DNA from: Blautia coccoides
GTDB lineage: Bacteria; Bacillota; Clostridia; Lachnospirales; Lachnospiraceae
Reading direction: 5' to 3'
DNA: 64,000 nucleotides
Assembly (NCBI RefSeq): GCF_034355335.1
Contig: NZ_CP136422.1
Span: 3,568,501 to 3,632,500, forward strand
Shown: positions 8,699-24,842 of the stretch, one piece after another
How positions within the stretch are numbered: position 1 is the first letter of the stretch
Layout of the letters: each line of letters begins with the position of its first letter
Program-made: the position numbers and the translations under genes
The notes under the pieces: model-generated
What the model was told of the DNA's origin: nothing
Databases searched by the model: none
The model's input: only the letters and a program-made list of their open reading frames with translations

Positions 8699-8700
8699 AC

Positions 8701-9984
8701 TTATGACCCTGCCTTTCTCTCATCCAGATACAGCCGAATGGCCCATGGAGGTATTTTTACATTTCCGGGCGGTTCCTTAATAAAAATAAATGCCGCCTCA
8801 TAATCTGGCTTCTCAGTGGGATAGATGCCGTCTCCGTCTGTAAAATACAACAGTCCTTTCAGATCTCTGATCTTTTTCTCCTTGATCAGCCTGTCCACAT
8901 AAGTAAATACGGGACGAAAGTCTGTACCGCCCCTTCCCTGTATACGGATCTGTTTCATATAGGCCCGCCAGTCCTCCTCACAGCCGAGTGTCACATCATC
9001 CTGGATGTAACAGTCACACTGTATGATATGGACATTCATCTTTTTGAAAAAATTCTCCCTTTCACTGAGCATGGAATAGGTCTCTTCCAAAAAACGCTGC
9101 ACCATTTCCCGGGAACAGGAGCTGGATGTGTCAATAGCTATGACAATCTCCTCAAGTTTGTATGCCTCTGTGTATTCCAGAGGCTCCACCAGTGGCATGT
9201 TACCATACATGGACAGTCCAAGGCAATAGGAAATATAATCAAAACTTTCCATATCGAGCTGTACTTCCTCTCTCTGCACAGCAAAACGCCGCAGAAATCT
9301 CCGGTAATCATACCTTCTTTTTTGCTGCAGCTCATACCATTCCTCTGGATTCCCTTTTTCACTTCCTGCCCTCTTGCCGGCATTCCCTGTATCACGGCTT
9401 GCATATGCCGCGGCTTTTTCCCATATCCTGCGGATCCCTTCAAGCTCCCCGCCTGAAATCTCCCGCCACAGTCTGTGCTCATCCGTAAAAAACAAGCTCT
9501 TCCAGGTATCTATGCACCTCTTTTCAAACTTTCCCTCCAGCAGCATTTCATAAATCTGTGCTGCGGTCCTGGAACTGTTTTCCTTCCAGAACAGACGGTA
9601 AACCTGGTCTTTTTCCTTCCCGGCCTTCCCTGTAAGATAGGGAAGTCCAAGACAGTCCACTGTATACTCTGCCACTATGTCACAGGCCAGATCCCACAAT
9701 TTTTCATCCCGATCCATTCGGTCTGCAGGATGCAGGTAGAGACAGTGGAAAAGGCTGTGCAGGTAAATCCTGTTGATATATTTTCTTCCCTTTTCCTGAA
9801 AATCAGCCAGAACCGCCTTGGGAGAATAGTAAACAGCCCTGCCGTCTGTACAGGTACAGACACATGTATCATCTGCGGCAGTTTTTAGAAAGCTGCATGC
9901 CAGCGCAAAAAAAGGACAGGCGCAGGAAATTTCCTGATCGGCCAATGCCCAGATCTCCTGCGCAATTTCCTCTGCCTGTCTCAT
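8701..9984 (-). CDS. VWA-like domain protein (DUF2201-type), partner of the AAA ATPase
   Basis: 427 residues from the ATG at 9984, which overlaps the upstream stop by four bases (ATGA). A longer frame exists, but this start is translationally coupled. The N-terminal helical half resembles putative metallopeptidase-like DUF2201 proteins: HSLFHCLYLH (about residue 72) is the degenerate HExxH position, with the glutamate replaced. The C-terminal VWA domain has a MIDAS-like motif AIDTSSSCS (about residue 290), GRGGTDF (about 365) and YFTDGDGIYP (about 388). Such proteins act with MoxR ATPases in multi-protein assemblies. Its role with the NRPS operon is unknown. Confidence 0.75.
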   Translation of the reverse strand: MRQAEEIAQEIWALADQEISCACPFFALACSFLKTAADDTCVCTCTDGRAVYYSPKAVLADFQEKGRKYINRIYLHSLFHCLYLHPADRMDRDEKLWDLACDIVAEYTVDCLGLPYLTGKAGKEKDQVYRLFWKENSSRTAAQIYEMLLEGKFEKRCIDTWKSLFFTDEHRLWREISGGELEGIRRIWEKAAAYASRDTGNAGKRAGSEKGNPEEWYELQQKRRYDYRRFLRRFAVQREEVQLDMESFDYISYCLGLSMYGNMPLVEPLEYTEAYKLEEIVIAIDTSSSCSREMVQRFLEETYSMLSERENFFKKMNVHIIQCDCYIQDDVTLGCEEDWRAYMKQIRIQGRGGTDFRPVFTYVDRLIKEKKIRDLKGLLYFTDGDGIYPTEKPDYEAAFIFIKEPPGNVKIPPWAIRLYLDERKAGS

Positions 9985-10334
9985 AATTCCATATCCTTTC
10001 CGCCAAATCCGAACTGCTCTTCTTTTTTTGACAGAAGCCATAATACACATTCTGTGTTTCCATACTTCTGTGCCAGCGCCAGAAGCTCATCCATCTGCAC
10101 AGAGGTTACCTCTGCCAGACCAAAAAGAACTTTTACGTTCTCCGTCTCTCTTGCCCGGATCAGTTTTTCCATGGCAGGGCGGAAGCGTTTTTTCAGATAA
10201 TCCCTGTACCGTCCGTACAGGGCACCGTCCTGGGGACACAGTTCAAAAAAACGCTCCAGCGCAATGGCTAGACGGATGTTCTCCTGTCCGCTTGACAGAA
10301 ATTTATCATCCAGTTCTCTGCTACTGCTCTTCAT
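9981..10334 (-). CDS. Small helical protein of unknown function
   Basis: 117 residues, charged and predicted helical, without signal peptide or membrane segment. The second half (AMEKLIRARETENVKVLFGL onward) resembles a short helical repeat of the ankyrin or HEAT kind, but no family is recognised. It overlaps the dehydrogenase gene before it by 14 bases and the VWA gene after it by four. It is therefore produced with them and is probably an accessory of the VWA/AAA pair. Confidence 0.65.
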   Translation of the reverse strand: MKSSSRELDDKFLSSGQENIRLAIALERFFELCPQDGALYGRYRDYLKKRFRPAMEKLIRARETENVKVLFGLAEVTSVQMDELLALAQKYGNTECVLWLLSKKEEQFGFGGKDMEL

Positions 10335-11187
10335 AATATTTGATCAGTGCCTGTGTGCCGAGATCGCCCATCCCCTCTTCATCCAGCTTTCTGTACATAT
10401 CCAGCACTTCCGTGAGGATAGGCAGGGTCAGCTTTCTGGCATCTGATTCTTCCAGGGCAATCTTCATATCCTTGATGTAATGCTTGATAAAAAATCCCGG
10501 TTCGTAATCCTCTTTTATCATGCGGGGTGCCATGTTATTCATCTGCCAGCTTCCCGCAGCGCCCTGGCTGATGCTGTCCAGCATGGTCTGCACGTCAAGT
10601 CCTGCCGCACGGGCATAGGTAATGGCCTCACACACGCCTGCGATCACTCCGCCCAGAGCGATCTGGTTGGCTGCCTTTGTATGCTGTCCGTTCCCGGCTT
10701 TTCCCTCATAGATGATAGTCTTGCCCATGGACTTAAACAACTCCAGACAGGCTTCAAAGGCTTCCTCGTCACCACCGGCCATAATAGATAATGTACCGTG
10801 CCTTGCACCTACATCTCCGCCGGAAACAGGGGCATCCACTGCGTAAATCCCCGCCTCCCTGGCTCTCTCATAAATCTCCATGGAAAGCTTCGGACTGGTT
10901 GTTGTCATATCAATGACATAGGTTCCCGGCCTGGCATTGGCTATGATGCCCGTCTCACCAAAATAAACCTCCCAAACATCCTCGGGATAACCCACCATGG
11001 TGATGACAGCCTCCCTGTCTCTGACGCACTCTGCCACAGTGTCACGCCATACGGCACCTTCTTCTATGATATCCTGCACCTTATCTTTTGTTCTGGTATA
11101 AATGGACAGTTCGTACCCGGCTTTCATCAGGTTGCGGACCATGGATTTTCCCATCACTCCCACACCGATAAAACCTATTTTTTTCAT
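10321..11187 (-). CDS. NAD(P)-dependent beta-hydroxyacid dehydrogenase (HIBADH/GarR family)
   Basis: 288 residues. The N-terminal Rossmann nucleotide site is IGFIGVGVMGKSMVRNL, and VDAPVSGGDVGARHG (about residue 117) is the substrate-binding loop. The catalytic lysine region is GNGQHTKAANQIA (about residues 161-173). Family members oxidise 3-hydroxyisobutyrate or reduce tartronate semialdehyde and related 3-oxo acids. It follows the ACP gene by 69 bases and overlaps the next small gene, so it lies in the NRPS-ligase-ACP transcript. Whether it acts on the peptide pathway or is a passenger is open. Confidence 0.85.
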   Translation of the reverse strand: MKKIGFIGVGVMGKSMVRNLMKAGYELSIYTRTKDKVQDIIEEGAVWRDTVAECVRDREAVITMVGYPEDVWEVYFGETGIIANARPGTYVIDMTTTSPKLSMEIYERAREAGIYAVDAPVSGGDVGARHGTLSIMAGGDEEAFEACLELFKSMGKTIIYEGKAGNGQHTKAANQIALGGVIAGVCEAITYARAAGLDVQTMLDSISQGAAGSWQMNNMAPRMIKEDYEPGFFIKHYIKDMKIALEESDARKLTLPILTEVLDMYRKLDEEGMGDLGTQALIKYYEEQ

Positions 11188-11256
11188 AACCTTACACCTC
11201 TTCTCGATTTCGCTTCTAACAGTTTACCATAATTCCGAAGATTTTACACCTGTTTT

Positions 11257-11508
11257 TTACAGTCCCTGCGCACGCATTTCCTTTTTCTGCATATAATCTA
11301 TCACATCCCGCACCTGAGACAGCTTCCACACATCCCGCACCGGGATTTCCACCTGAAACCTGTCCTCAAAGGCACAGACAAGATTTGCCACATCCAGGGA
11401 ATTCAGCGCCAGGTCCCTGATAAAATCCGTATCGGGGGTAAGTTCGCTGATTCCGGTCACCTGATATACAAGTTCTTCGATCACAGACAGGTAATCTTCC
11501 TTGCGCAT
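11257..11508 (-). CDS. Acyl carrier protein
   Basis: 83 residues with the ACP four-helix pattern and the phosphopantetheine serine in LALNSLDVANLV (about residue 38; Asn replaces the usual Asp before Ser). It overlaps the adenylating ligase stop by one base (TAATG), so the two are translationally coupled and probably act together: the ligase activates an acid and loads it here. It is a dedicated ACP and not the fatty-acid synthase AcpP, judging by position and the altered DSL motif. A phosphopantetheinyl transferase must be supplied from outside the window. Confidence 0.9.
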   Translation of the reverse strand: MRKEDYLSVIEELVYQVTGISELTPDTDFIRDLALNSLDVANLVCAFEDRFQVEIPVRDVWKLSQVRDVIDYMQKKEMRAQGL

Positions 11509-13157
11509 TAAAAACGCCCCCTTCTTATTTTGTGGATTGATGTTTTCTTAAATTCTGCCTCTGTCATACGGATGAGCTGTATTCTTTTGTGAAAAGGCAG
11601 TTTTTTATTCAACTCATAGATTTCCTCCTGGATCCGCTCCAGAACCTCATAGGAAGTCATATCCCTGGTCTTTTGCGGGTCCGCGTATATGACGGCGGAA
11701 AGCTTCACATCATCGGCAGTCTGCCCGTTGCTGGCACCATACACCATCACTTCTCTGACAAGAGGTATCTCACATATAAGCTCCTCCAGCTCCTCGGGCA
11801 TCACTTTCTTCCCATTGCTGAAAACCACCAGATTCTTTTTTCTTCCGGTAATGTAGAGAAATCCCTTCTTGTCCATGTATCCCAAATCACCTGTACAGAA
11901 CCAGCCGTCCGAAAACGCCTTTTTTGTCTCCTCGTCAGATTTATAATATCCTTTGAAAACAGAAGGGCCTTTTACCAGTATCTCTCCGTCCTGGATCTTC
12001 ACGCTGGTCCCCGGAAGCAGAACGCCCACAGAGTTTTCCCTGTGTCTGCGGTTTCTGTTTACAGAAACAAGAGGACCGCACTCCGTGACACCGTATCCCT
12101 GCAGAACTTTGATCCCATAACACCCAAATTCCTGGGCCAGCCGTTCATTCTGCTGGGCACCTCCGCATATGATAAGAAAAACCGAATCTCCAAGTACCCG
12201 GGTTACCGCCTGGTGTAAAAAGGGACTGGAGGACAGATGATACTTTTTCCGGCTCTGGTATCTTTGCAGCGCCTTTTTCGCCTCCTCCCGGGTGCCGTCC
12301 CGATTCTGTTCCAGCCGGATGCTGCGGATCAGAGACTCCATCATCATAGGTACAAGTAAGATCATCTCAGGACAAAACAGGCGGAGATCACGCATCCAGT
12401 TTTTAACGCTTCCATTCAGTCCCAGGTGCTGCCCCTGTGTCAGTACATTCAGCGCACCGCACACAAGGGAATAGGCATGATACAGAGGCAGACAGGTATA
12501 GGCCTTGGTCCCAGCTTCCACCAGTGCCTGGGCATGGCAGGCATTATACATAATATTGCCGTGGCTGAGCATGACCGGTTTGGGCGCGCTTATGGTTCCG
12601 GATGTATAGATAATAGCAGCCGTCTCTTCCCCCCGCACGTTATCCATCACTCGATCCAGCTCCGCCTCCCTGCTCTTCAATACCTTATATCCCCGGGAAA
12701 GAAGAGAGGAAAAGCTTCGTTCGTCATGATGATCCCACAGATAGATCACAGGGCAGCCGCAGGAGCCATGAAACAGAAATTCATACTCCCGGGAAACGGC
12801 AGTCATACAGGCATCCCCGTAAGTGATGCAATGCAGGATCTTCTCGTCCTGCTGCTCCACATCCACAGGCATTGCCACACCGCCAATTGAACAGCAGGCC
12901 AAAAACAGTACAAGCCACTCATAGCTGTTCTCTCCCACGATGGCCAGATGTTTCCCCGCGATCCCCATATCCAAGAGCATGAGCGCAAGAGCCTTCACAT
13001 CCCTTATAAGCGTCCGGTAAGTGTGACAGTGCTCCTTTCCCTCCCCGTCATAGACGGTGACTGCCGGTCTGTCTCCAAACCTAGCCTCTGCCTTTTGCAG
13101 AAATTCTCCCACTGTCTCATATGTATTCACATTGTTTAAAGGATAATCAAATCTCAT
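11508..13157 (-). CDS. AMP-forming acyl-CoA/acyl-ACP ligase
   Basis: 549 residues of the ANL superfamily (long-chain acyl-CoA synthetase-like). The P-loop IIYTSGTISAPKPVMLSHG (about residues 182-200) departs from the usual TSGTTGxPKG, with ISA in place of TG. Later motifs are normal: GYGVTECGP (about 340), WFCTGDLGYMD (about 415) and a lysine-bearing GRKKNLVVFSNGKKV (about 430). It overlaps the response-regulator gene by four bases and the ACP gene by one. The likely role is to activate a fatty or other carboxylic acid and load the neighbouring ACP, perhaps as starter for the NRPS. Confidence 0.85.
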   Translation of the reverse strand: MRFDYPLNNVNTYETVGEFLQKAEARFGDRPAVTVYDGEGKEHCHTYRTLIRDVKALALMLLDMGIAGKHLAIVGENSYEWLVLFLACCSIGGVAMPVDVEQQDEKILHCITYGDACMTAVSREYEFLFHGSCGCPVIYLWDHHDERSFSSLLSRGYKVLKSREAELDRVMDNVRGEETAAIIYTSGTISAPKPVMLSHGNIMYNACHAQALVEAGTKAYTCLPLYHAYSLVCGALNVLTQGQHLGLNGSVKNWMRDLRLFCPEMILLVPMMMESLIRSIRLEQNRDGTREEAKKALQRYQSRKKYHLSSSPFLHQAVTRVLGDSVFLIICGGAQQNERLAQEFGCYGIKVLQGYGVTECGPLVSVNRNRRHRENSVGVLLPGTSVKIQDGEILVKGPSVFKGYYKSDEETKKAFSDGWFCTGDLGYMDKKGFLYITGRKKNLVVFSNGKKVMPEELEELICEIPLVREVMVYGASNGQTADDVKLSAVIYADPQKTRDMTSYEVLERIQEEIYELNKKLPFHKRIQLIRMTEAEFKKTSIHKIRRGRF

Positions 13158-14668
13158 GTCTCCTCCAGTTCTCCCAGTTCACCATTCTCTATCAGTCCCA
13201 GAAAAACCTCTACCAGTCTTCCGTCAAATTGTGTTCCCTTTCCCAATGCAAGCTCTTCCTTAGCCTTTTCCAGAGACAGGCGCTTTCTGTAATGGCGGTC
13301 TGACATCATGGCGTCAAAGGCGTCTGCAATGGATATCATCCGAGCCTCCAGGGGGATCTGTTCTCCTGAAAGCCCGTCAGGGTAACCGCCCCCATCCATC
13401 CGCTCGTGGTGCGCCCGCACGATCTCTCCCAGATTGTGAAACATATCAATACAGGAAAGAATCTTCTCTCCAATCTCCGGATGTCTTCGTATCACCGCAA
13501 ATTCTTCCTCTGTAAGCTTGTCATCTTTGCACAAAATAGCATCAGAGACACCCACCTTGCCAATATCATGAAGCAGACCGGCACACCTGACACATTCCGT
13601 CTGGGATTCTTCCATTCCCATTTTTTCCGCTATCTTTTCCGCATACATGGAGACCCGGTCTGAATGTCCGCGGGTATAGTCATCCTTGGCATCCACCAAC
13701 AGACGGAGAGCCTCCACGGTCTGCATATAACTCTCTTTCATCCGGTCATAGGTCAGACTCAGTTTTCTGTTGTTTATGTTCAAAAGCATGTGAAGAATGG
13801 TGTTGTGCAGCGCCGTGGTGACCTGTTCCCCATAGACAGCCAGCAGGCGCCGCTGTACATCAGGATAGGAAGAATCCTTTCCGATCCCGAGGATCCCCAG
13901 AAAAATATCATGATTTGCCTTGAGCGGCACCAGAAACAGCCCCTCAAACTCCAAAATCTCTCCATCACTGCCGGCCTTCTGCACTGCCTGTTTCAGATGC
14001 GGATAATCCTCACTCAAAAATTGCTCCAATTCCTTCTCATATCTTCCATTCCCCTGAAAAATCTCATCCGGCAGAGTTTCCACAGACATGGAAGATATGA
14101 TCTTCTTTGGCTTGATCCAGGCAAATCCATTTTTATCATCCCCCAAATTCAGCATCTGCTCCAGGATCCTGCCCAACACCACCTCCAGAGACAAAAGCTG
14201 GTGTATACTGGGAATGGAGCCTAAAATGGAACCAAGCCCGTCCTGATAACGGTAAACGGTCCGCATCTGCCTGATGGATTTGACACAGCTTTCCACCAAA
14301 AGCTCCAGTTGGTCAAAGCGGTCACTCTTCTCAAAATACCCCTGGATATCCAGCTCCCGGACAGTATTCAAAGGCGGCGCAACCTCTCTGTGCCCGGTGA
14401 GCATGATCACAAATATCCTCGTGTCAAATGCTCTCAGGCGTGCCACTACCTCATCTCCGCAGATGGGATACATAATAAAATCCAGCAAAAGAATATCATA
14501 AGATTTATTTTTCATCATCTCCAGTGCAGCAAGCGGGTCATTTTCTGTGTCCACAGTGTAGCCGGAGGATTCAAAATAGGAATACAGCGCGTCCGTAATA
14601 TTCTTGTCGTCATCCAGAACCAGCATGGTGAAACCATTTTTCTGCTGTCCTGCCTTGTTTTTTCGCAT
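13154..14668 (-). CDS. Response regulator with HD-GYP output domain
   Basis: 504 residues. A receiver domain (about 12-130) has the acidic pair in LVLDDDKN, the phosphoacceptor Asp in ILLLDFIMYPICGDE and the conserved Lys in GYFEKSD. A GAF-like middle follows (about 150-300). The C-terminal HD-GYP domain has GHSDRVSMYA, LLHDIGKVGVSDAIL and HHERMDGGGYPDGLSG (the GYP motif). HD-GYP domains usually hydrolyse cyclic di-GMP. It starts 30 bases after the histidine kinase gene, its probable cognate sensor, and overlaps the ligase gene. No DNA-binding domain is present, so output is through a nucleotide signal or protein contact. Confidence 0.9.
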   Translation of the reverse strand: MRKNKAGQQKNGFTMLVLDDDKNITDALYSYFESSGYTVDTENDPLAALEMMKNKSYDILLLDFIMYPICGDEVVARLRAFDTRIFVIMLTGHREVAPPLNTVRELDIQGYFEKSDRFDQLELLVESCVKSIRQMRTVYRYQDGLGSILGSIPSIHQLLSLEVVLGRILEQMLNLGDDKNGFAWIKPKKIISSMSVETLPDEIFQGNGRYEKELEQFLSEDYPHLKQAVQKAGSDGEILEFEGLFLVPLKANHDIFLGILGIGKDSSYPDVQRRLLAVYGEQVTTALHNTILHMLLNINNRKLSLTYDRMKESYMQTVEALRLLVDAKDDYTRGHSDRVSMYAEKIAEKMGMEESQTECVRCAGLLHDIGKVGVSDAILCKDDKLTEEEFAVIRRHPEIGEKILSCIDMFHNLGEIVRAHHERMDGGGYPDGLSGEQIPLEARMISIADAFDAMMSDRHYRKRLSLEKAKEELALGKGTQFDGRLVEVFLGLIENGELGELEET

Positions 14669-14698
14669 ACCTTCTTCACCTCAAATAATCTTTTTCTT

Positions 14699-16519
14699 CT
14701 AACTTTGCAGGGGCAGCTCCACATAAAAGGCTGCTCCGCCCTCCGGCAGATTCTCAGCCCACATTCTGCCGCTGAACTTGCCCCTGATCAAGCCTGCGGA
14801 ACTGTAAAGTCCCAGGCCGGTTCCCATTGCCCCTTTTGTGGTCACCATGGAGTGAAACAGCCGGTCCATAACCTCCGGTGCAATTCCCGGTCCGCTGTCT
14901 TTCACTGCAATCAGAATATTCCCACCCTGTTTTCCTGCATAAAGGGTGATCTTCCCGCCCTCTTCCTTCATGGCATCCATTGCGTTGTCCACCAGATTGT
15001 TGACCACCTGCACCAGATTATTGATATCCCCCTTTAAAACAGCATCTCCGGGCAGTTCATTTTCCATGGACAAAATGCAGCTATGCTTTGCCAGGCTGTG
15101 CTTCATCAGCAGAAACACTCTTCTGAACACTTCATCCACCGTAAATTCCACAATGTTGTTGGTATTCATATTTGTAGCCAGCCCTTTTACCGTGGTGATG
15201 ATATCAGACATGTAGGCACAGCTCTCCTTTATCTTTCCAAGCCACTCTCTCATATCCCCCGCAATCTCTCGATGATCCTCAATCGTGACTTCCTCATCCC
15301 CCAGGCTCTCTGTATACTCATCCACCAGATTTTCCAGGGATTCCACACTGCCGGAGACAGACATGATAGGTGTCTTCAGATTGTGGGAAATCCCTCCGAT
15401 CATCTGCCCTAAGGAGGCCAGACGCTCCCGTTCCATCTCCTGACTCAATTTCTGCTGCTGCTGTCTGATCTCTTCTTTCACCCGCGTCACATCCTTAAAA
15501 AGCGCCACTACGCCCATCATTCTTCGTTTTCCGAATACAGGTGTCAGTTCCACGGAGTAGTAGATTTTCCTGTCCTCTTTGATCACTGCCTGCTCATACG
15601 TGATAACGCTCACCGTCTGCCTGCAGATATCAAAAAAGCTCAGCAGATCATAGATGACATCCTTTTTCTGCTCATCCAGAACTTCCACCTGCCGGTCCAG
15701 ATACACGTTATTTTTCATGCCGTAGCTCTCTCCAAAGGCCTCCTGGAAAGCATCGTTCATATTGATGATCTGACTGTCTGAAGATATGATCACATAGCCG
15801 TCCGAAATATTATCTATAATATTCTGCAGCGCAATGGGCTTGATATTCAGAAAATTAAGATAATAAATTGCTATCCCATGGCAGATAATGGTGAACATAA
15901 AAGCAATGGGTGTCGCCGCAATGGACAAATTCACGATCTTCAGCGTAGCCAGAAGGTTGACGCTTACCGGCACGATCAGCCCCCAGGCGAACAACACAGA
16001 CTGCCACACCGCGCTCTTATTCCTTTTCCTAATACCGTTTCTCAGAGCCAGCACAATGGATATGATACAATAAATATAATACTGGCTCCCCGACAAGATA
16101 AAAAGCGGTCCGAACTTCACCTCTGAGGCATAAATAGAAAACTGTTTATAAAACAGATGATGCCACGGATTCGTAAATACGATCAAAGATGTCACGATCG
16201 GAAGAATATAAAGGAAATAAAATATTCTCGGCAGACTCTCATAATTATAGATAAACGCAATGGTCAGAAGCAGTACGCTGACCACCATCAGCGCACAGGC
16301 AGAGCAGGTAATGGCATCCAGCACCGTCAGCACCTGAATACTGCCGTCCGCGCCTCCCAGAATTCCGGCGATCGCCAGAAGCCAGATGAGCAGAAAGGCG
16401 GATGCCACCACGTAAAGCCGCTGCAGAAGCGGCAGTCTGCCTTTTCTCAGACAGCTGTAAAGAAAGAAGATCAGAATGGTGATGGCTATATCCACCATAT
16501 GTGTCATGATACGTTCCAT
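14699..16519 (-). CDS. Membrane sensor histidine kinase (7TM input, PAS, HATPase)
   Basis: 606 residues. About seven or eight hydrophobic helices fill residues 8-220, the layout of the histidine-kinase N-terminal 7TM domain. A PAS domain (about 225-340) ends in MMGVVALFKDVTRVKEE. The H-box is GGISHNLKTPIMS (about residue 376), the N-box VNNLVDNAMDAM (about 500), and the G boxes DSGPGIAPE and MGTGLGLYSS. It autophosphorylates on His and should signal to the HD-GYP regulator next to it. It begins 20 bases after the NRPS stop, so sensor, regulator and synthetase share a transcript. The ligand may be a small hydrophobic molecule, possibly the NRPS product (inference). Confidence 0.9.
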   Translation of the reverse strand: MERIMTHMVDIAITILIFFLYSCLRKGRLPLLQRLYVVASAFLLIWLLAIAGILGGADGSIQVLTVLDAITCSACALMVVSVLLLTIAFIYNYESLPRIFYFLYILPIVTSLIVFTNPWHHLFYKQFSIYASEVKFGPLFILSGSQYYIYCIISIVLALRNGIRKRNKSAVWQSVLFAWGLIVPVSVNLLATLKIVNLSIAATPIAFMFTIICHGIAIYYLNFLNIKPIALQNIIDNISDGYVIISSDSQIINMNDAFQEAFGESYGMKNNVYLDRQVEVLDEQKKDVIYDLLSFFDICRQTVSVITYEQAVIKEDRKIYYSVELTPVFGKRRMMGVVALFKDVTRVKEEIRQQQQKLSQEMERERLASLGQMIGGISHNLKTPIMSVSGSVESLENLVDEYTESLGDEEVTIEDHREIAGDMREWLGKIKESCAYMSDIITTVKGLATNMNTNNIVEFTVDEVFRRVFLLMKHSLAKHSCILSMENELPGDAVLKGDINNLVQVVNNLVDNAMDAMKEEGGKITLYAGKQGGNILIAVKDSGPGIAPEVMDRLFHSMVTTKGAMGTGLGLYSSAGLIRGKFSGRMWAENLPEGGAAFYVELPLQS

Positions 16520-16539
16520 AAAATATCCCTGCTTTCCTC

Positions 16540-19500
16540 TCAGCTTTTAAAACAACGTACTGCCTGGTATAAATCTGTATTTTCCCAGTCAAACTGCGCA
16601 CGCTTCAGTTCACATACAGTCCTTCTTGCATCCACGTATATGGTGGTTTTCTGTGCTCTTCCCGAAAAATACGTCTCCGCGGCTGCCTGTATATATGGAG
16701 ATATATCTTCAGCCGCCTTCTTCCTGAGACTTTCCTCAAACACCTGGTCCGGGACACACTCCACCTTTTTGCACTCTTCCAGAAGATCCGCTAAAGTCAC
16801 CTCGTCAGGATTTGCTATATGCCAGGCACCTCCCGGCTGTCCCATCAGCCTGCAGACTGCCCGGGCACACTGGTCCACCGGTGTGATCTCAAGAAGCATT
16901 TGATCAAACCTTTTCGGCATCTGATCAAGTTCCAGAACACCTCTCACCAGTCGGTAAAATGCGTTGGTCTCAGGATTTATCTGGAATACCCCGTCACTTT
17001 TTCTGCCGATGAGACGTCCTACCCGGAAGATACCGGCTTTCAATCCCCTGTCCATGGCCCGGCAGACCAGCGTCTCTGCCAGGATCTTGCTTTTTACATA
17101 GGGGTTTTCCTCCCAGTTCTGTCCCATATCCAGGTCTCTCTCGGAAAATACCGCCGAAAGCCCTGGCGCATCCTTTAAAAATTCCCCCGCAACACTTACA
17201 GTAGAGATATGGATAAACAGCGCCTGCCCCTTCTCTGCAAAGGAAAGCACATTTTTCGTTCCCTCCACATTTGTCAAAAGCAGTTCCTCCATGGGCGCAT
17301 AATGACGCACATCCGCCGCTGCGTGGACTACGGTATCTATGGTACTGCTCAATTCGTGGTATAATGTCTCACTGATTCCCAGCTCCGGAAGCGTGATATC
17401 ACCTTCCAGTATCCTGATCTGTCTCTTTATCCTGTCCGCACCGTTTTTCCCGAAATAGAAAGAAAGTACCTTGTCAAGTCTGGCCTCTCCATTCTTTCTC
17501 AACAGACAGTATATGGTTTTCTCCCCGTCTGCTGCCAGCTCCCGCAGAAGATGTGCACCCAGATAACCGGTAGCTCCTGTCAAAAGCAGATTTTCACCCA
17601 CTTCCACTTTTTCGGAAAGGCTGCATACATATCTTGGAAGACGTTCTTCCTGTTCTTCCGTGACATCAGACTGTACCTTTTCACGATCTGCCTTCGGCGG
17701 CTGTTGGCTCTGGGCAGAAGTATCCTCTTTGATCTCTCCGATCATCTGCATCTGCTCCCGCAGGGTAGGATGCCGGTAAAAATCATTGAGTGAAAAATCC
17801 CAGTGCCGGCTGTAATAATGGCTCAGAACTACAATGGCAGTCAGAGAAGTTCCTCCCTGCATAAAAAAGCTCTTATCCGCCTCCGGCTCTTTCCCCAGAA
17901 CTTCCCGCCAGATATCCAGCGGCGTTTTGTCTGCCTCGGAACCTTCCTGCGGCTTCTCGGAAATCACCTCCTCCTGCCTCCTGTCCTCTTTCTCCTGCAC
18001 GGTTTCTTCATCACCGCCTAAAAGCAGCACATTCCGCTCCAGTTCCTTCCTGTCCACTTTTCCACTGGATGTACGGGGCAGCCGGTCAATGGACTTCACC
18101 TGACCAGGCACCATATAATCTGGAAGCTTCTTAGCCAGACAGGTTCTCACGGAATCTTCTGAAAAGTCCCCCTTAGGCACCAGGAACGCACAGAGGGAGA
18201 ATACCGTTTCCTCCCTTCTGACCGGTACCACTGCCGCTTCTTTTGCAAAACCGGACTGCAGAATCTGGGCTTCTATCTCTTCCGGCTCGATCCGGTGTCC
18301 ATTGAGCTTTATCTGGGCATCCGCTCTTCCCAGGCACTGCCAGTTACCATCGGCCCGCAGCCGTCCCAGATCACCGGTTTTATACATTCTCTCTCCCGGA
18401 AAGAAAGGATCCGGCAAAAATGCCTGTTCTGTCAAATCATCCCGGTTGATATATCCCTTCGCAAGACATTCCCCGGCAATGTAAATCTCACCCATACCTG
18501 TTGGCATGACCTGGCGCATCTCCTGATCCAGAAGATAATAACGGCAGTTGCCGATGGGTTTTCCTATATGGATGGCATTGTCCTCTGTAATGTCACCCTG
18601 GCAATTGTAAACGGATGTCTCTGTGGGACCATAGATATTAAATATCCTGGCATTTGTCAGACCCCTGATCCGCTCCTTCAGTGCCAGTGTCCAAGGCTCT
18701 CCCATAAGGATCAGAACTTCTGTCCGTGCCAGAACCTCTGCAAAAGAAGCCTCATGCAGGCACATCTGCATCCTGGAAGGTGTGAGCTGCAGCACGGTGG
18801 CCCCGTCCCGCTTCATCCTCTCCGCCATTTTCCAGGGAAGCAGCATTTCTTCCTCATCTGCCACACTGATATGTCTGCCCCGGGCAAGAGCCAGCAGTGT
18901 TTCGATGGTAAATACATCAAAAACACAATTGGACGCACAGAGCACACAGCTATTTTCATTTCCCAGAATGGTATCCACATGTGCCGCCAGATTGGAGACT
19001 GCCTTGTGTACCATCATGACTCCTTTGGGCTGCCCGGTTGTTCCTGATGTATAGATCACATTCAGTACATCCTCTCCCGTGCGCCCCTTTACAGGGAGCT
19101 TCGTCTTATCTCCGCCGAAGACAGGCAGGAGCACCGGACATGGTACCTCCCCCTGCAGTTTTATCTCTTCGCTTCGCAAAAGCAGCTTGGCTCCGGCATT
19201 TTCCAGCATGTAGCAGATCCGCTCCTTGGGAAGCGCCGGGTCCACCGGAAGATAAGCAGCTCCGGCCTTTAAAATCCCCAGCATGGCAGCCAGCATATCC
19301 CCGTCACGTTTCAGAAGAAATGCCACACGGTCCTCACGCCGGATACCCTTGCTTATCAGATAAGCTGCCAGATCGTCTGACCTGTCCTTTAATTCCCCGA
19401 AAGTATATGACTTTCCATTACCCCAGCATACGGCTGTGCGGGTCGGGTAAAGGCAGGCCTGCCGGTCGATCATACGGTCAATAAAGGTGCCGTCATAAGG

Positions 19501-22500
19501 CATCCTCAGATAATTGGGTTCCTCCAAAAGACGGATGCTGTCACAAGGCTCCAGAAGATTGATGCTGCCGATCTCCTGATGGGGAAGTTCCAGGATCTGT
19601 CTGAGGATTTCCAGGTAACAGCGGCTGTAAAACTCAATGGTCACGCTGTCAAACAGGGATTTCGCGTACTCAAAACAAAACCTGCTTTCCTCCCCGTTCT
19701 GGATCACTTCAAGATGAAGATCCATTTTTACAGATACCTCTTCCATCTGCAGCATGGTGAGTTTTGCTTCACCAAGAGGCAGATTTTTTGTCTGGGCGGC
19801 CGTCAAGGAAAAGAGCACCTGATACAGGGGATTTCTGTCCCTGTTACGCTCCGCATTTGACATAGCAACAATATCTTCAAGGGGTGTATCCTGGTTGTCC
19901 AGCATCTCCAGCACCCGCTCTCTCACCTGATGCAGATACTCCAGATAATTTTTTTTCCTCTCCGGTTCTAAAAAGACGGGAAGTGTATTCACAAACACAC
20001 CGGTTACCCCGCTCAGATCCCCGTGGCGTCTGCCGGAGACAGGGGTTCCCACCACGATCTTCTCCTGTCCGCACACACCAAAAAGCAGTATGCCAAATGC
20101 GGATAAGAGCATCATATATGGTGTGACCTGCTGCTGGGCACAGAATTTTCTTCCTGCCTCCTCCATCTCCTTGGGCATATGGAAGTAATACCTGCCGCCG
20201 CGTCCGTCAAACACACCGGGGCGTATCCTGTCTGTGGGAAGCCGCAGTTCCTCCCGGTTTTCAGAGAGCTTTGTCCTCCAGTACCCTTCCTGCCGTTTCT
20301 GCAGCTCGGCCGGTCTTTTTTCCACCCACCAGGCGTAATCCCTGTAAGTGGTATCCGGCATGCCTGTCTCCTCCTGGAGACACGCTTTATGAAGCCGTTC
20401 AAAGACAAGCTGGCTGCTCATACCATCAGATATGATATGATGGATGTCCAAAAGCAGATACTGCTTCTCCCCGTCTGTAAACATCCCTGCTCTCATAAGC
20501 GGCGGTCTGTCCAACTGAAAAGGCCGGATAAATCTGTCTGCCGCTTCTTTTATGTTCTCTCCCGTCACCTCCTCCAGCTCAAAATCCACCTGTTCGTGGA
20601 CGCGGGCCTGTACATTAGAGCCAGTGATCTCAAATCCGGTGCGGAAGGTTTCATCCTCACGGATGATCCTGCGAAACGCACAGGTAAGTGTTACCCTGTC
20701 CAGGTTTCCCTCAACAAGAAAAATCCCGGGCATGTGATACCCCGTCTTGGTCACATCTGTCTGTTCCAGTACATAAAAGCTTCTCTGGGCGGCTGTCAGC
20801 GGGTATGTTTGGTCCTTCGGAGCTTTGGGGATCTCCGTGTGGAAAGCGGAGGCATCTGCCTCTCTGCCCCGCAGCAGATTCGCAAAGCGACGTACCGTAC
20901 GGCAGGCATACAGCCCGGTCAGCTCAGGAAGGATAGAGAATTCCCGTTCCACTTCTGTGAGCATGGCAACTGCATTCAGGGAATCCCCGCCGTTTAAAAA
21001 GTAATCGGAATGGATACTCAGGTTCGGCTGCTGCAGAGATTTCTTCCAGATCTCCAACAGCTTTTCCTCCAGTTCATCAGCCGGAGCCTCCTGGATATCA
21101 GGCATGACCGGTTTTGGCAGCTTTTTGTGATCCACTTTTCCATTGGCCGTCACCGGCATCTCCTGCAACTGCACAGCCATTGCAGGGACCTGATATCTGG
21201 GAAGGTAGAACGCCGCATAAGCCAGAAGCTCATCCCCCTTTAATTGCTCTTCAGAAGTATAATAGGCAACCAGAAGATTATCAAAGGCCTTCACAGCAGC
21301 CATATTGACTTTTGGATGTGAAACCAGTTTTTCCTCTATCTCCGCAGGCTCCATTCTGTGTCCCAGAATTTTTAACTGTCCGTCTTTTCTGCCTGTGAAT
21401 ATGATCTCTCCATCCTGGGTCCAGTATCCCATATCGCCTGTACGGTACAGACGCTCGCCCGGAATATACGGGTCCTCCACAAATTTCTTCTTTGTCAGTT
21501 CCTCATCCCCGTGATAGCCACGGGCCAGGCAGTCTCCACCAATATAAAGCTCACCCACTGCCCCCACTGGCAGAGGCCGCATGGATTCATCCAGGATATA
21601 GATCCGGCAGTTCCCAAGCGGTTTTCCGATGGAGATCATCTCATTCCCGGTCACCGCGCTGTGACTCACAGCCACAGTGGCCTCAGATGGACCATACTGG
21701 TTATATAGCTGTACGGAAGAGCAGAAACGAAGCGCATGATAAAGCTCCGGAGGCATACTCTCCCCTCCGCACACGATACATTCTATATGAGACATGGCCT
21801 TTCCAAATGCCGCGTCCTTTAAATATTCCAACAGCCTGGAGGGTGTCAAAGCCATAAATCCTGTGTCATATCCGCAGATCAGTTCAGCAAGGGCTGAGGG
21901 CATATTGCACACTGCCTCCTCAGCCATCACAATAGTCCTGCCGTTGAGCAGCGCGCTGATGCTCTCCAGCAAAAAGGCATCAAACCCTACGTTACAGATA
22001 GACAGAACCGCACCTTTTGGGTAAAGCGGGGTCATGGCGGCTGCCAGATTCAGTACACTGTGCTGCTCCACCTCCACAGCTTTCGGCTTTCCGGTGCTGC
22101 CGGATGTATAGACCAGATACGCCAAATCATCCGGCCCCGCACAGGCACAGGCAGCCCCGTCTCCTTTTTGCAGCTCTTCTTCCGTGAAAACCGGTATGGG
22201 AAAATCAGCGGTTTCGGCTGTCCCGTCTGAGATAACAAGAGCTGCCCCGCTGTCCTCCAGCAGTTCCCTGATACGTGCTGCAGGCTGCCGGCAGTCCATG
22301 AGCAGCCATGCATTTCCCGAAAATGCCACAGCCGCCATTACAACAAGAAGCCTGTCACTGCGTTCCATGAGGACGGCTATATTTTTTCCTCCCTCAGGGC
22401 AAAAACAGGCAATCTTCTCTGCCAGTGTGTCTGCATCCCGCACCAGTTTTTCATAGGTCATCCGCTTATCCCTGAATATCACGGCTGCCCTTCCAGGATT

Positions 22501-23940
22501 CATAACAGCCTGTTCCCGCAGATGATCCGCTATATTCTGCTTTCTGGGATACCAGGTATCTGTCTGATTGAAGTCAAAAATAAGGCGTTCCTCTTCCTCC
22601 TCACTGATGACGGACAGCTCTTTTATGGGAGTTTTCGGATACAGCAGGGCGCTGTGCAGAATGTCCATCAGGTGCTGATGCAGCGTGGTGATCTCACGCT
22701 CGGAAAAAAGCTGCGTCTGATAATCGTAATCCACCTGAAACCGGTTGTCCTCATCCCTGCTGCTCAAATGGATGCAAAGAGGCTCTGCCTGATAGCCGCT
22801 GTAAAGCCAGCGGCCTTCCAAGGTCACCTGTGCGCCCTGTAGATGATGGATCTGTCCGTTCTGATAGGAGAGAACGATCCCGAAAAGCTGGTCCGGCGCT
22901 GCTCCCTCGTGATTTTGAGCTGCCAGCTTCTTTATCTCTGAAAACGGCATTCTCTGGTGATAGAGAAGCTGAAACCAGTCCGTCTGCAGTTTCTCATTAA
23001 ACTCCTGAAAGGAGATGGCGGCATCCAGCTCATTCACAAAAGGCAGGGTATTGACAAACATACCTGCCATCTGTTTCTCTTTAAAATTCAGACGGTTGAT
23101 CGTAGGAACACCGATACAGAATTTCTCCTGTCCTTTGATCCTTCGCAGATAGACAGCCAGAGCCATATAAAACACAGCAAAGGGTGATACCTTTTTTTCT
23201 CTGCAGAACCCTGCGATCATACGGTTCATCCTGTTGGAAACCGTAAAAGATCTGCGGATCCCAACAGGACTTACCTGTGCATAGGGGTGTTCTTTTGCCG
23301 CCGCGGGATTGATATCTTTCAGCATGGCCTGCCAATATACTGTGTCACGCTCAAAGCTCTTTGAGACAAGGTATTTGTTCTCAAGTTCAATATGCAGTGC
23401 ATAGTCCGGCATTGGCTCTTTCTTGGGTGCCTCGCCTTTCAGCATGTGAAAATAGTTGTGGATGATCCTGTTGGTCACAACGGTCTGGGACCAGGCATCT
23501 GCAATGATATGATGCACCTTTGTCAGGATTCCCCCTGTATTTTCCGCTCTCTTAAATAGTATCATCTGGCAAAGGGGAGAATCCAGAAGCGTGATGTGCT
23601 CCCGGGCCACAGAGACGTCCCAGATATCGGCCCCCTTTTTGTTCGTCCTGGAGAAGTCCAGAAACGGAACACTCCTTGGAATATGTGAATCTATGTACTG
23701 GCAGACTTCACCATCCCTGAGGGTGATCCTGGTGCGCAGAACCGGATAATCCTCATAACAAAGCCTGATACATTCCTGCAGATACTCCACATGAAAATTA
23801 CCGTCAATGCGCAGTACGGTACATATGGTATTGATAGGCGTACCCGGGTGGGCCATCTCCAGATTCCATATATTCTGCTGGCTGTTTGACAATGGCAGAA
23901 ATTCCCTGATGTCTTTTGTCTCTTGTGCTCTCTCTTCCAT
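16540..23940 (-). CDS. Two-module NRPS with terminal thioester reductase (C-A-PCP-C-A-PCP-R)
   Basis: 2,466 residues from the ATG at 23940 (GAGG five bases upstream; an open frame continues upstream). Order: C1 (about 10-440, HHIIADAW), A1 (455-975; YTSGSTGKPK, YGPSEAT, YRTGD, NGKVD), PCP1 (GGDSL, about 985), C2 (1060-1490, HHIISDG), A2 (1495-1985; YTSGTTGQPKG, YGPTETS, YKTGD, SGKVD), PCP2 (GGTSL, about 2030), R domain (2100-2460; GATGYLG nucleotide site, YVKSK active site). All key residues are present. The R domain releases the chain reductively as an aldehyde. C1 before the first A domain implies acylation of the first residue or a starter from another carrier. Hand-aligned specificity pockets (A1 about DALAVGQVA, A2 about DVIQIMIVY) gave no confident substrate. 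Confidence 0.93.
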   Translation of the reverse strand: MEERAQETKDIREFLPLSNSQQNIWNLEMAHPGTPINTICTVLRIDGNFHVEYLQECIRLCYEDYPVLRTRITLRDGEVCQYIDSHIPRSVPFLDFSRTNKKGADIWDVSVAREHITLLDSPLCQMILFKRAENTGGILTKVHHIIADAWSQTVVTNRIIHNYFHMLKGEAPKKEPMPDYALHIELENKYLVSKSFERDTVYWQAMLKDINPAAAKEHPYAQVSPVGIRRSFTVSNRMNRMIAGFCREKKVSPFAVFYMALAVYLRRIKGQEKFCIGVPTINRLNFKEKQMAGMFVNTLPFVNELDAAISFQEFNEKLQTDWFQLLYHQRMPFSEIKKLAAQNHEGAAPDQLFGIVLSYQNGQIHHLQGAQVTLEGRWLYSGYQAEPLCIHLSSRDEDNRFQVDYDYQTQLFSEREITTLHQHLMDILHSALLYPKTPIKELSVISEEEEERLIFDFNQTDTWYPRKQNIADHLREQAVMNPGRAAVIFRDKRMTYEKLVRDADTLAEKIACFCPEGGKNIAVLMERSDRLLVVMAAVAFSGNAWLLMDCRQPAARIRELLEDSGAALVISDGTAETADFPIPVFTEEELQKGDGAACACAGPDDLAYLVYTSGSTGKPKAVEVEQHSVLNLAAAMTPLYPKGAVLSICNVGFDAFLLESISALLNGRTIVMAEEAVCNMPSALAELICGYDTGFMALTPSRLLEYLKDAAFGKAMSHIECIVCGGESMPPELYHALRFCSSVQLYNQYGPSEATVAVSHSAVTGNEMISIGKPLGNCRIYILDESMRPLPVGAVGELYIGGDCLARGYHGDEELTKKKFVEDPYIPGERLYRTGDMGYWTQDGEIIFTGRKDGQLKILGHRMEPAEIEEKLVSHPKVNMAAVKAFDNLLVAYYTSEEQLKGDELLAYAAFYLPRYQVPAMAVQLQEMPVTANGKVDHKKLPKPVMPDIQEAPADELEEKLLEIWKKSLQQPNLSIHSDYFLNGGDSLNAVAMLTEVEREFSILPELTGLYACRTVRRFANLLRGREADASAFHTEIPKAPKDQTYPLTAAQRSFYVLEQTDVTKTGYHMPGIFLVEGNLDRVTLTCAFRRIIREDETFRTGFEITGSNVQARVHEQVDFELEEVTGENIKEAADRFIRPFQLDRPPLMRAGMFTDGEKQYLLLDIHHIISDGMSSQLVFERLHKACLQEETGMPDTTYRDYAWWVEKRPAELQKRQEGYWRTKLSENREELRLPTDRIRPGVFDGRGGRYYFHMPKEMEEAGRKFCAQQQVTPYMMLLSAFGILLFGVCGQEKIVVGTPVSGRRHGDLSGVTGVFVNTLPVFLEPERKKNYLEYLHQVRERVLEMLDNQDTPLEDIVAMSNAERNRDRNPLYQVLFSLTAAQTKNLPLGEAKLTMLQMEEVSVKMDLHLEVIQNGEESRFCFEYAKSLFDSVTIEFYSRCYLEILRQILELPHQEIGSINLLEPCDSIRLLEEPNYLRMPYDGTFIDRMIDRQACLYPTRTAVCWGNGKSYTFGELKDRSDDLAAYLISKGIRREDRVAFLLKRDGDMLAAMLGILKAGAAYLPVDPALPKERICYMLENAGAKLLLRSEEIKLQGEVPCPVLLPVFGGDKTKLPVKGRTGEDVLNVIYTSGTTGQPKGVMMVHKAVSNLAAHVDTILGNENSCVLCASNCVFDVFTIETLLALARGRHISVADEEEMLLPWKMAERMKRDGATVLQLTPSRMQMCLHEASFAEVLARTEVLILMGEPWTLALKERIRGLTNARIFNIYGPTETSVYNCQGDITEDNAIHIGKPIGNCRYYLLDQEMRQVMPTGMGEIYIAGECLAKGYINRDDLTEQAFLPDPFFPGERMYKTGDLGRLRADGNWQCLGRADAQIKLNGHRIEPEEIEAQILQSGFAKEAAVVPVRREETVFSLCAFLVPKGDFSEDSVRTCLAKKLPDYMVPGQVKSIDRLPRTSSGKVDRKELERNVLLLGGDEETVQEKEDRRQEEVISEKPQEGSEADKTPLDIWREVLGKEPEADKSFFMQGGTSLTAIVVLSHYYSRHWDFSLNDFYRHPTLREQMQMIGEIKEDTSAQSQQPPKADREKVQSDVTEEQEERLPRYVCSLSEKVEVGENLLLTGATGYLGAHLLRELAADGEKTIYCLLRKNGEARLDKVLSFYFGKNGADRIKRQIRILEGDITLPELGISETLYHELSSTIDTVVHAAADVRHYAPMEELLLTNVEGTKNVLSFAEKGQALFIHISTVSVAGEFLKDAPGLSAVFSERDLDMGQNWEENPYVKSKILAETLVCRAMDRGLKAGIFRVGRLIGRKSDGVFQINPETNAFYRLVRGVLELDQMPKRFDQMLLEITPVDQCARAVCRLMGQPGGAWHIANPDEVTLADLLEECKKVECVPDQVFEESLRKKAAEDISPYIQAAAETYFSGRAQKTTIYVDARRTVCELKRAQFDWENTDLYQAVRCFKS

Positions 23941-24062
23941 TCTTTCCTCTTTTTCCTCCGTATACATGATCGAACTTAGCCTTTCTTTTTCTGCACTGCT
24001 GAACTGACATATTTCGACATTTACAATTTGATTTTTATTATACAGGCTTACAATTCCTCGTG

Positions 24063-24842
24063 TCAATCATTCTGATAAGAATTACTATTATTAGTAAAAT
24101 TTACCAACACTTTAGCCATTACCTGTTTTAACCTTTTATTTGTCTGACTGTTTATGTGTAATTCCCTATTTTCACAGAAACCGCCTTCCGGAGGATTTTC
24201 CCCGCAGATATCTGCTCCGATACATTTTCTTGCTTCTGCCGCTTCCTCGATCCAGCTAATGAGACTGTCCAGTCTCACCTCTCCCTGGTCCCAGTTGGTA
24301 ACTGCATCCCTGCGGCAAAGGATATCCTTGTCCACAGAAAGATATAGGGGACAGGAGTCTTTTTTAAGAAATTCCCCGAATTTCTCCATTCTCCCTTCCC
24401 GCAATTCCTCCCCAGATATCCATGTCACCTTCTCTGTTGGCATATCCTTTCGGAGATCCACTTCTTTTGGACCCACAACACACACACTTTTCAGCATAGG
24501 ATTGCTACTCAGAGCTTCTCTCACCCAGCTTCCGCAGGACAAAAGTCCGAAAAAGGCAGACTCCTGCATATCTGTGTGGTTGTCAAAAAGAAGAAGGGAA
24601 AAAGGAACGTCTATCATCTCCATCCAAAGCTTGCTCAAATAATGATAATTGCCGGAATCCAGAAAATGAATGCCGAAGGGACCGTATTCCCTGATCTTCT
24701 CCTTGATATCCTGTTCCGACTCACAGGTGCAGTAGCAATTGACACCTTCCGCACGGGTAAAGTCCACCATTTCATAGGAATCCTGTCTATAGAAGTCCTC
24801 CTCCGGGTAAACACCGGAAAAATTCATGATGATCGTTTTCAT
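24063..24842 (-). CDS. Arginase/agmatinase-fold protein at the head of the NRPS operon
   Basis: 259 residues from the ATG at 24842, with AGGAG ten bases upstream. The ureohydrolase manganese motifs are visible: LLLFDNHTDMQ (DxHxD) and LYLSVDKDILCRRD (SxDxD), plus an upstream FGIHFLDSGNYHYLS. An additional acidic GADICGE sits near the C-terminus. Arginase-fold enzymes hydrolyse guanidino, formimino or amide C-N bonds. It is short and divergent, so substrate cannot be assigned. It ends 122 bases before the NRPS start on the same strand with no terminator seen between, so it is probably co-transcribed. Confidence 0.75.
   Translation of the reverse strand: MKTIIMNFSGVYPEEDFYRQDSYEMVDFTRAEGVNCYCTCESEQDIKEKIREYGPFGIHFLDSGNYHYLSKLWMEMIDVPFSLLLFDNHTDMQESAFFGLLSCGSWVREALSSNPMLKSVCVVGPKEVDLRKDMPTEKVTWISGEELREGRMEKFGEFLKKDSCPLYLSVDKDILCRRDAVTNWDQGEVRLDSLISWIEEAAEARKCIGADICGENPPEGGFCENRELHINSQTNKRLKQVMAKVLVNFTNNSNSYQND

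Follow-up and report, generated by a model that had tools for sequence, protein, structure and literature searches.

The 64-kb stretch of Blautia coccoides DNA analysed here (the window, in the following, is this whole stretch; the genome is a single contig of 6.1 Mb) carries on its minus strand a cassette in which genes for a nonribosomal peptide synthetase (NRPS), a sensor histidine kinase (HK), a response regulator (RR), an acyl ligase and an acyl carrier protein (ACP) follow one another in this order. The NRPS (16540..23940), 2466 amino acids long from its likely ATG, matches Pfam Condensation, AMP-binding and PP-binding twice each as well as NAD_binding_4, confirming the complete C-A-PCP-C-A-PCP-R architecture (condensation, adenylation, peptidyl carrier protein and reductase domains) read in a preliminary description of the locus. 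Its first condensation domain (22552..23904; Pfam and alignment) bears the motif HHIIADA; the two adenylation domains (21112..22539 and 18037..19524; alignment) carry the codes DALAVGQVA(K) and DVIQIMIVY(K), anchored on what we take to be the PheA numbering; and the thioester reductase domain (16543..17619) was delimited by Pfam, alignment and comparison with solved structures. The other four genes were assigned by Pfam and alignment: the HK (14699..16519) combines a seven-transmembrane (7TM) sensor (PF16927) with PAS, HisKA and HATPase_c (Pfam HisKA_7TM/PAS/HisKA/HATPase_c), the RR (13154..14668), a putative cyclic di-GMP (c-di-GMP) phosphodiesterase, combines a receiver (REC) domain with DUF3369 and HD-GYP (Response_reg/DUF3369/HD_5), the AMP-forming ligase (11508..13157; AMP-binding) has the atypical P-loop TSGTISAPKPV, and the ACP (11257..11508; PP-binding) has its Ser in LNSLD. 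The spacing is exactly as previously described: gaps of 20 bases between NRPS and HK and 30 between HK and RR, then overlaps of 4 (RR/ligase) and 1 (ligase/ACP).

A sigma-70 type promoter, TTGACA-18-TATAAT (24037..24066, minus strand), is the predicted start of the cassette transcript. Of the 22 promoter-like sites in the 15.7 kb scanned it is the only one to match at 12/12 positions, shuffled sequence averaging 16.2 sites of any quality, and this perfect match suggests that the NRPS probably has a promoter of its own. The TTG at 24066 that opens the full NRPS open reading frame (ORF) was ruled out as start because it belongs to the -35 box of this promoter; the ATG at 23940, preceded by a purine-rich ribosome-binding site (read by eye), is the likelier one.

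The five-gene arrangement is not confined to Blautia. Searching 299 genomes for the NRPS family gave a match at 1e-60 in 46, and all six best relatives besides the window (39-58% identity) show NRPS, HK, RR, ligase and ACP in identical order; the next two inspected, in genomes G054 and G076, have no HK or RR match within about 20 kb; a ligase and an ACP were matched in G076. The genome collection was further scanned with an alignment of seven HKs, and the best 80 of at least 552 confirmed relatives were analysed (the HK loci, numbered with L); the nearest named relative among them is Blautia parvula (HK 93%, NRPS 85%). Loss of these neighbours in closely related loci had been named beforehand as grounds for giving up the proposal of a single functional unit; the check was run and the idea survived, with 6/6 nearest relatives intact, a same-strand NRPS lying no more than 1.5 kb upstream at 79/80 HK loci, the RR directly next in 70/72 and ligase plus ACP downstream in 52/64 of the loci with room for them. 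The single locus without an NRPS (L108) has an unrelated ORF of 398 amino acids upstream, at L121 and L122 the ligase and ACP genes precede the NRPS, and the HK-RR pair is kept even in distant loci without downstream ligase and ACP. The pair spans Lachnospiraceae, Oscillospiraceae, Erysipelotrichaceae, Christensenellaceae and one metagenome-assembled genome (MAG) of the Coriobacteriia (Actinomycetota), whose cassette (L122) hints at inter-phylum transfer or a binning error.

It follows from this conservation that the kinase-regulator pair, earlier called unusual, is a fixed part of the cassette and the norm within the family rather than an oddity of the window. The NRPS itself fits the published type of gut dipeptide-aldehyde synthetase, so that one could see here an ordinary operon of that kind with the regulatory pair as a local Blautia passenger; the occurrence of the pair in four families and the Coriobacteriia MAG contradicts this, conservation in the nearest relatives and in the 80-locus set rules out the regulator as a passenger, and we regard this explanation as highly improbable. 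Genes that do look like passengers are the three flanking ones (an arginase-like gene, a 3-hydroxyisobutyrate dehydrogenase (HIBADH)-type gene and a 117-aa ORF), matched at E 1e-5, within the flanks retrieved around the 80 HK loci, in a single locus, that of Blautia parvula. The extent first given as 9981..24842 is accordingly corrected: the cassette spans about 11257-24066.

Residue alignments including the window comprised 73 RR, 78 HK, 57 ligase, 33 ACP and 79 NRPS rows, after removal of weak-scoring ORFs, ligase ORFs above 700 and ACP ORFs above 150 amino acids. The phospho-acceptor His is kept in all 78 HKs and the receiver Asp in all 73 RRs; the HD pair is present in 70/73 and both HHE and GYP in 71/73 regulators (the rest being gaps or X), and the window RR has its HD and HHExxDGxGYP residues intact. 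HK and RR form a simple two-component pair, with no Hpt domain among the Pfam matches of the cassette proteins; the phosphorelay first proposed is not one in the strict sense. Within the sensor, HK residues 116-144 (TNPxHHLxYxxFS..SE..GP) are invariant in the first-aligned seven HKs and make a candidate ligand site. At L095, which belongs to a branch of the HK tree other than the clade described below, a 7TM(PF16927)-PAS-GGDEF protein (L095:6057-7604) directly behind the RR represents the sensor family of the kinase fused to a cyclase.

A connection to c-di-GMP is most tangible in one clade of rumen and gut bacteria. Directly before the NRPS, 12 HK loci carry a GGDEF gene; 11 of these form one clade of the HK tree together with two loci on contigs that start within the NRPS gene, L097 and L100, while L086 stands apart, and the regulators of the clade are without DUF3369. 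All 12 upstream GGDEF proteins keep GG[DE]EF, RxxD and the N and D positions, which we take to be the base contacts of c-di-GMP makers. At the cut-offs used for the clade genomes (GGDEF E <=1e-12, HD_5 E <=1e-8; single matches were assigned to the cassette by hand from contig coordinates), the cassette GGDEF is the sole one in 10/12 genomes and in 10/11 within the clade. The exceptions are L086, outside the clade, with 29 matches, and L109 with two, the second being weak and sharing its ORF with an EAL match. Likewise, the cassette HD-GYP is the sole HD_5 match in 10/11 clade genomes (G305 has a second), no EAL match was obtained in 8/11, and seven genomes (G299, G300, G302, G303, G304, G306, G307) have one GGDEF and one HD_5 match each, both in the cassette, with nothing else found. 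A PilZ receptor was rejected, with no match in any of the 12 genomes searched, the 11 clade genomes among them. With scoring confined to the top 150 first-look candidates of each genome, a c-di-GMP-I riboswitch was absent from 10/11 clade genomes and found in two of the 12 genomes, twice in G000, far from the window, and once in G309; the scan addressed the c-di-GMP-I class, c-di-GMP-II not having been searched genome-wide. Among 48 further carriers, at the same GGDEF cut-off, 46 have a GGDEF match; the match is lacking only at L097 and L100, which would fit a sole cyclase lying on the missing contig piece. Overall, the GGDEF counts cover 18 plus 48 of the 80 HK loci, three more (L053, L079 and L112, in G148, G015 and G214) having been searched separately at E <=0.001 and eleven lying outside the counts; L096 (G305) and G175 refer to one and the same contig.

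Beside the clade GGDEF there usually is an AfsR-like activator, whose C-terminus has the GGDEF fold with the catalytic motif lost and RxxD kept in 8/8; as judged from these residues, this domain is a degenerate-GGDEF, c-di-GMP receptor-like domain with predicted ligand binding. An example is L101:468-1676, its C-terminal domain being at residues 270-403, and unlinked homologues occur in Blautia at G000:C1:5593343, 342139 and 1140853.

It might be argued that HK and HD-GYP protein act through protein contact or another cyclic nucleotide and that the nearby GGDEF of the clade is incidental. HD-GYP proteins acting by contact, and others specific for cyclic GMP-AMP, do exist, and in a distant HK clade, where seven genomes (of L114, L116, L117, L119, L120, L126 and L127) gave 19 GGDEF-family matches at E 0.001, the 11 matches read were GGDDF-type (seven) or without such a motif (four). 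With no canonical GGDEF among them, a role of c-di-GMP is doubtful in that distant clade; one match read from G349 (L106) is canonical. Set against this explanation, almost every aligned regulator retains the HD and GYP motifs, the 12 upstream GGDEF proteins have the residues of c-di-GMP makers listed above, and mere coincidence would hardly place the sole cyclase match of ten genomes next to the NRPS, so that we hold the explanation to be rather unlikely. We instead consider it quite probable that the locus, as a conserved cassette, serves the synthesis of an N-acyl dipeptide aldehyde and that a dedicated c-di-GMP switch sets its output.

Several observations weigh against this preferred reading or restrict its reach. 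In addition to the non-canonical motifs of the distant clade, the window genome has 40 GGDEF (E <=0.001, the cut-off also applied to the distant clade), 15 EAL and 5 HD_5 matches, and the Blautia cassette holds neither cyclase nor activator. Within the rumen/gut clade, no homologue of the activator turned up in G308 at E 1e-20, none adjoins the cassette cyclase at L085 and L104, and the genomes are mostly MAGs of unstated completeness. The Asp of HHExxDG is replaced by Asn in five and by Ser in one of 71 filled regulator rows. As to the product, ligase and ACP are absent downstream in 12/64 loci and, in the distant HK group, 14/14 NRPSs that could be read have A1 codes deviating from the core pattern, hence the carriers do not all make one product type. 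The preliminary suggestion of c-di-GMP control is backed by comparative genomics, and for Blautia itself we infer it. The sole cassette cyclase and HD-GYP matches, the absence of PilZ and the adjoining degenerate-GGDEF activator suggest a private circuit; that c-di-GMP is the private second messenger of one pathway in the rumen/gut clade, the Blautia cassette being the version plugged into a larger network, is in our estimate an evenly balanced proposition.

The synthetase is well conserved at its functional residues: the reductase Tyr is kept in 76/76 and the Lys in 73/75 filled rows, the closest solved relatives of this domain being 6vtj and AusA 4f6c, and the last motif position of the first condensation domain is Gly in 40, Ala in 17 and Ser in 4 of 61 filled rows, window included. 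Elsewhere in the window genome, a Condensation search gave one match in a 467-aa ORF and one below cut-off, besides the two of the cassette NRPS. In the core group, which comprises 62 rows with the window counted, each of the 49 rows that could be read has an A1 code fitting D[AV][LI]x[VIL]GQ[VI][AG]. The A2 code differs between lineages, being DVIQIMIVY in both Blautia, DVTQILIVH in Robinsoniella and the Faecalicatena group and DCVELGMVF in 8/12 readable rumen-clade rows; judging from these codes, evolution in the core family seems to change the residue adjoining the aldehyde. In the distant loci L103, L111, L113, L115-L117, L119-L122 and L124-L127, the kinase follows NRPSs whose A1 codes, as far as they can be read, are quite unlike the core pattern, and these loci may represent the same switch on other products.

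The preliminary description had also suggested self-sensing. In a quorum-type scheme of this kind, which is compatible with the c-di-GMP switch and would add to it, the released aldehyde or the pyrazinone derived from it would be the ligand of the 7TM domain; the HK is strictly linked to the NRPS, and sensor-domain distance tracks A-domain code distance (57 rows) when controlled for the kinase domain (partial r 0.56, with 0/500 permutations as high). Controlled for the NRPS backbone, the partial r drops to 0.16 (kinase domain -0.19), which indicates that the correlation is mostly co-inheritance, and product sensing on the strength of this test was rejected as confounded; moreover, TNPxHHLxY in the sensor does not vary among seven HKs although the A2 codes do. 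Self-sensing is a possibility we rate as low, somewhat above that of the contact-type explanation.

The ligase P-loop TISAPKP, described earlier as atypical, is indeed so; it is not peculiar to the window gene, being a variant of a family trait with the consensus TSGTTSxSKPV (Ser at position 6 in 44/56, Pro after Lys in 38/56 filled rows). The best solved relatives of the ligase are CoA ligases, the acyl-ACP synthetase 8hsy ranking lower. Its gene overlaps that of the ACP by 1 base, and it may load this partner ACP, whose Ser is kept in 33/33 aligned rows. Two matches to the phosphopantetheinyl transferase (PPTase) family in the window genome both lie away from the cassette. At L121, a 217-aa gene of this family stands between ACP and NRPS, and an ORF cluster of 28 loci is located downstream of the ACP in the majority of the 14 listed members, the two members analysed, at L070 and L080, being PPTase-family proteins.

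Comparison with known systems places the biosynthetic part among the gut N-acyl dipeptide aldehyde clusters: the window cassette shares their C-A-PCP-C-A-PCP-R architecture and also contains a ligase and a carrier protein, presumably a defining trait of the published clusters. The N-acylation proposed earlier is plausible in view of ligase and ACP downstream in most loci, and an aldehyde or pyrazinone product is suggested by domain order and published relatives. The published record gives N-octanoyl-Met-Phe-H as the product of BGC0001686 and ruminopeptin as an N-acyl Leu-Glu aldehyde, both from clusters of gut Clostridia (PMC8518294; further context from PMC12327764); the likeness to rup and BGC0001686 is drawn from such descriptions, the window A codes not being matched to Met, Phe, Leu or Glu. 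The aureusimine synthetase AusA of Staphylococcus is another relative: its model NF047350 matches window NRPS residues 1036-2409 and its R domain (4f6c) is close, yet the score of 1132.1 bits (whole protein) lies far below the NCBIfam equivalog cut-off of 2500, and the window NRPS is accompanied by ligase and ACP genes and begins with a C domain, which AusA is not known to have. The RR shares REC and HD-GYP with intact motifs with regulators of the NosR family and presumably of the RpfG type; NosR NF053512 is its best NCBIfam match (204.6 bits, under the cut-off of 400), and the window RR differs in being wired to an NRPS cassette. The clade activator matches the AfsR and EmbR folds (8k60, 2ff4) with its N-terminus, and AfsR models weakly by sequence; unlike AfsR/SARP proteins, it has a C-terminal degenerate GGDEF with RxxD and adjoins a cyclase and an NRPS. 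While the biosynthetic part resembles a known kind, the hard-wired c-di-GMP switch, apparently self-contained in one clade, looks like a new element; our literature search turned up nothing tying HD-GYP or GGDEF to gut NRPSs, which is no claim of absence from print.

Based on these data, the following mechanism can be proposed. The ligase would activate a fatty acid and load the ACP, C1 would acylate the first amino acid (A1 code constant in the core family), module 2 would add the lineage-specific second residue and the R domain would release the product as an aldehyde, the warhead of a protease inhibitor. The 7TM kinase would sense an outside cue and phosphorylate the regulator, whose HD-GYP domain would degrade c-di-GMP. 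In the rumen/gut clade, the cassette also holds its PAS-GGDEF cyclase and, in most members, the AfsR-type activator with the RxxD inhibitory-site motif; as synthesis, breakdown and read-out share one gene block, c-di-GMP is seemingly reserved for the pathway there. In Blautia, the same HD-GYP arm would act against a larger c-di-GMP pool, any receptor being unlinked.

As to the surroundings, the arginase-like gene (24063-24842, minus strand), coding for an arginase-fold protein, ends at the -35 box and thus lies outside the transcript from that promoter. Behind the ACP follow, on the minus strand, the HIBADH-type gene (10321-11187) and the 117-aa ORF (9981-10334), the latter without Pfam match; no terminator-like site was among those predicted between ACP and the next gene, and read-through into the HIBADH-type gene is therefore possible. 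Further downstream (7145-10050, minus strand), a gene pair resembles an AAA ATPase and a metallopeptidase/VWA-like partner (by eye from the ORF list). Riboswitch control of the cassette in cis was rejected, as no Rfam family reached its gathering score in the window, at L049 or at L050; a T-box was found only in L058.

N-acyl dipeptide aldehydes of gut Clostridia are reported to act as inhibitors of cathepsins and proteasomes in vitro and to cause endoplasmic reticulum stress in epithelial cells (PMC8518294). Our literature search found no account of what switches gut peptide aldehydes on, and the cassette offers a candidate for such a switch, some of its owners showing no other c-di-GMP cyclase. 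The constant A1 and variable A2 codes of the core family suggest one scaffold re-aimed at different proteases. c-di-GMP usually is tied to motility and biofilm; the cassette suggests that it can also serve just one metabolite, and that activators of the AfsR type can carry a c-di-GMP-receptor-like domain.

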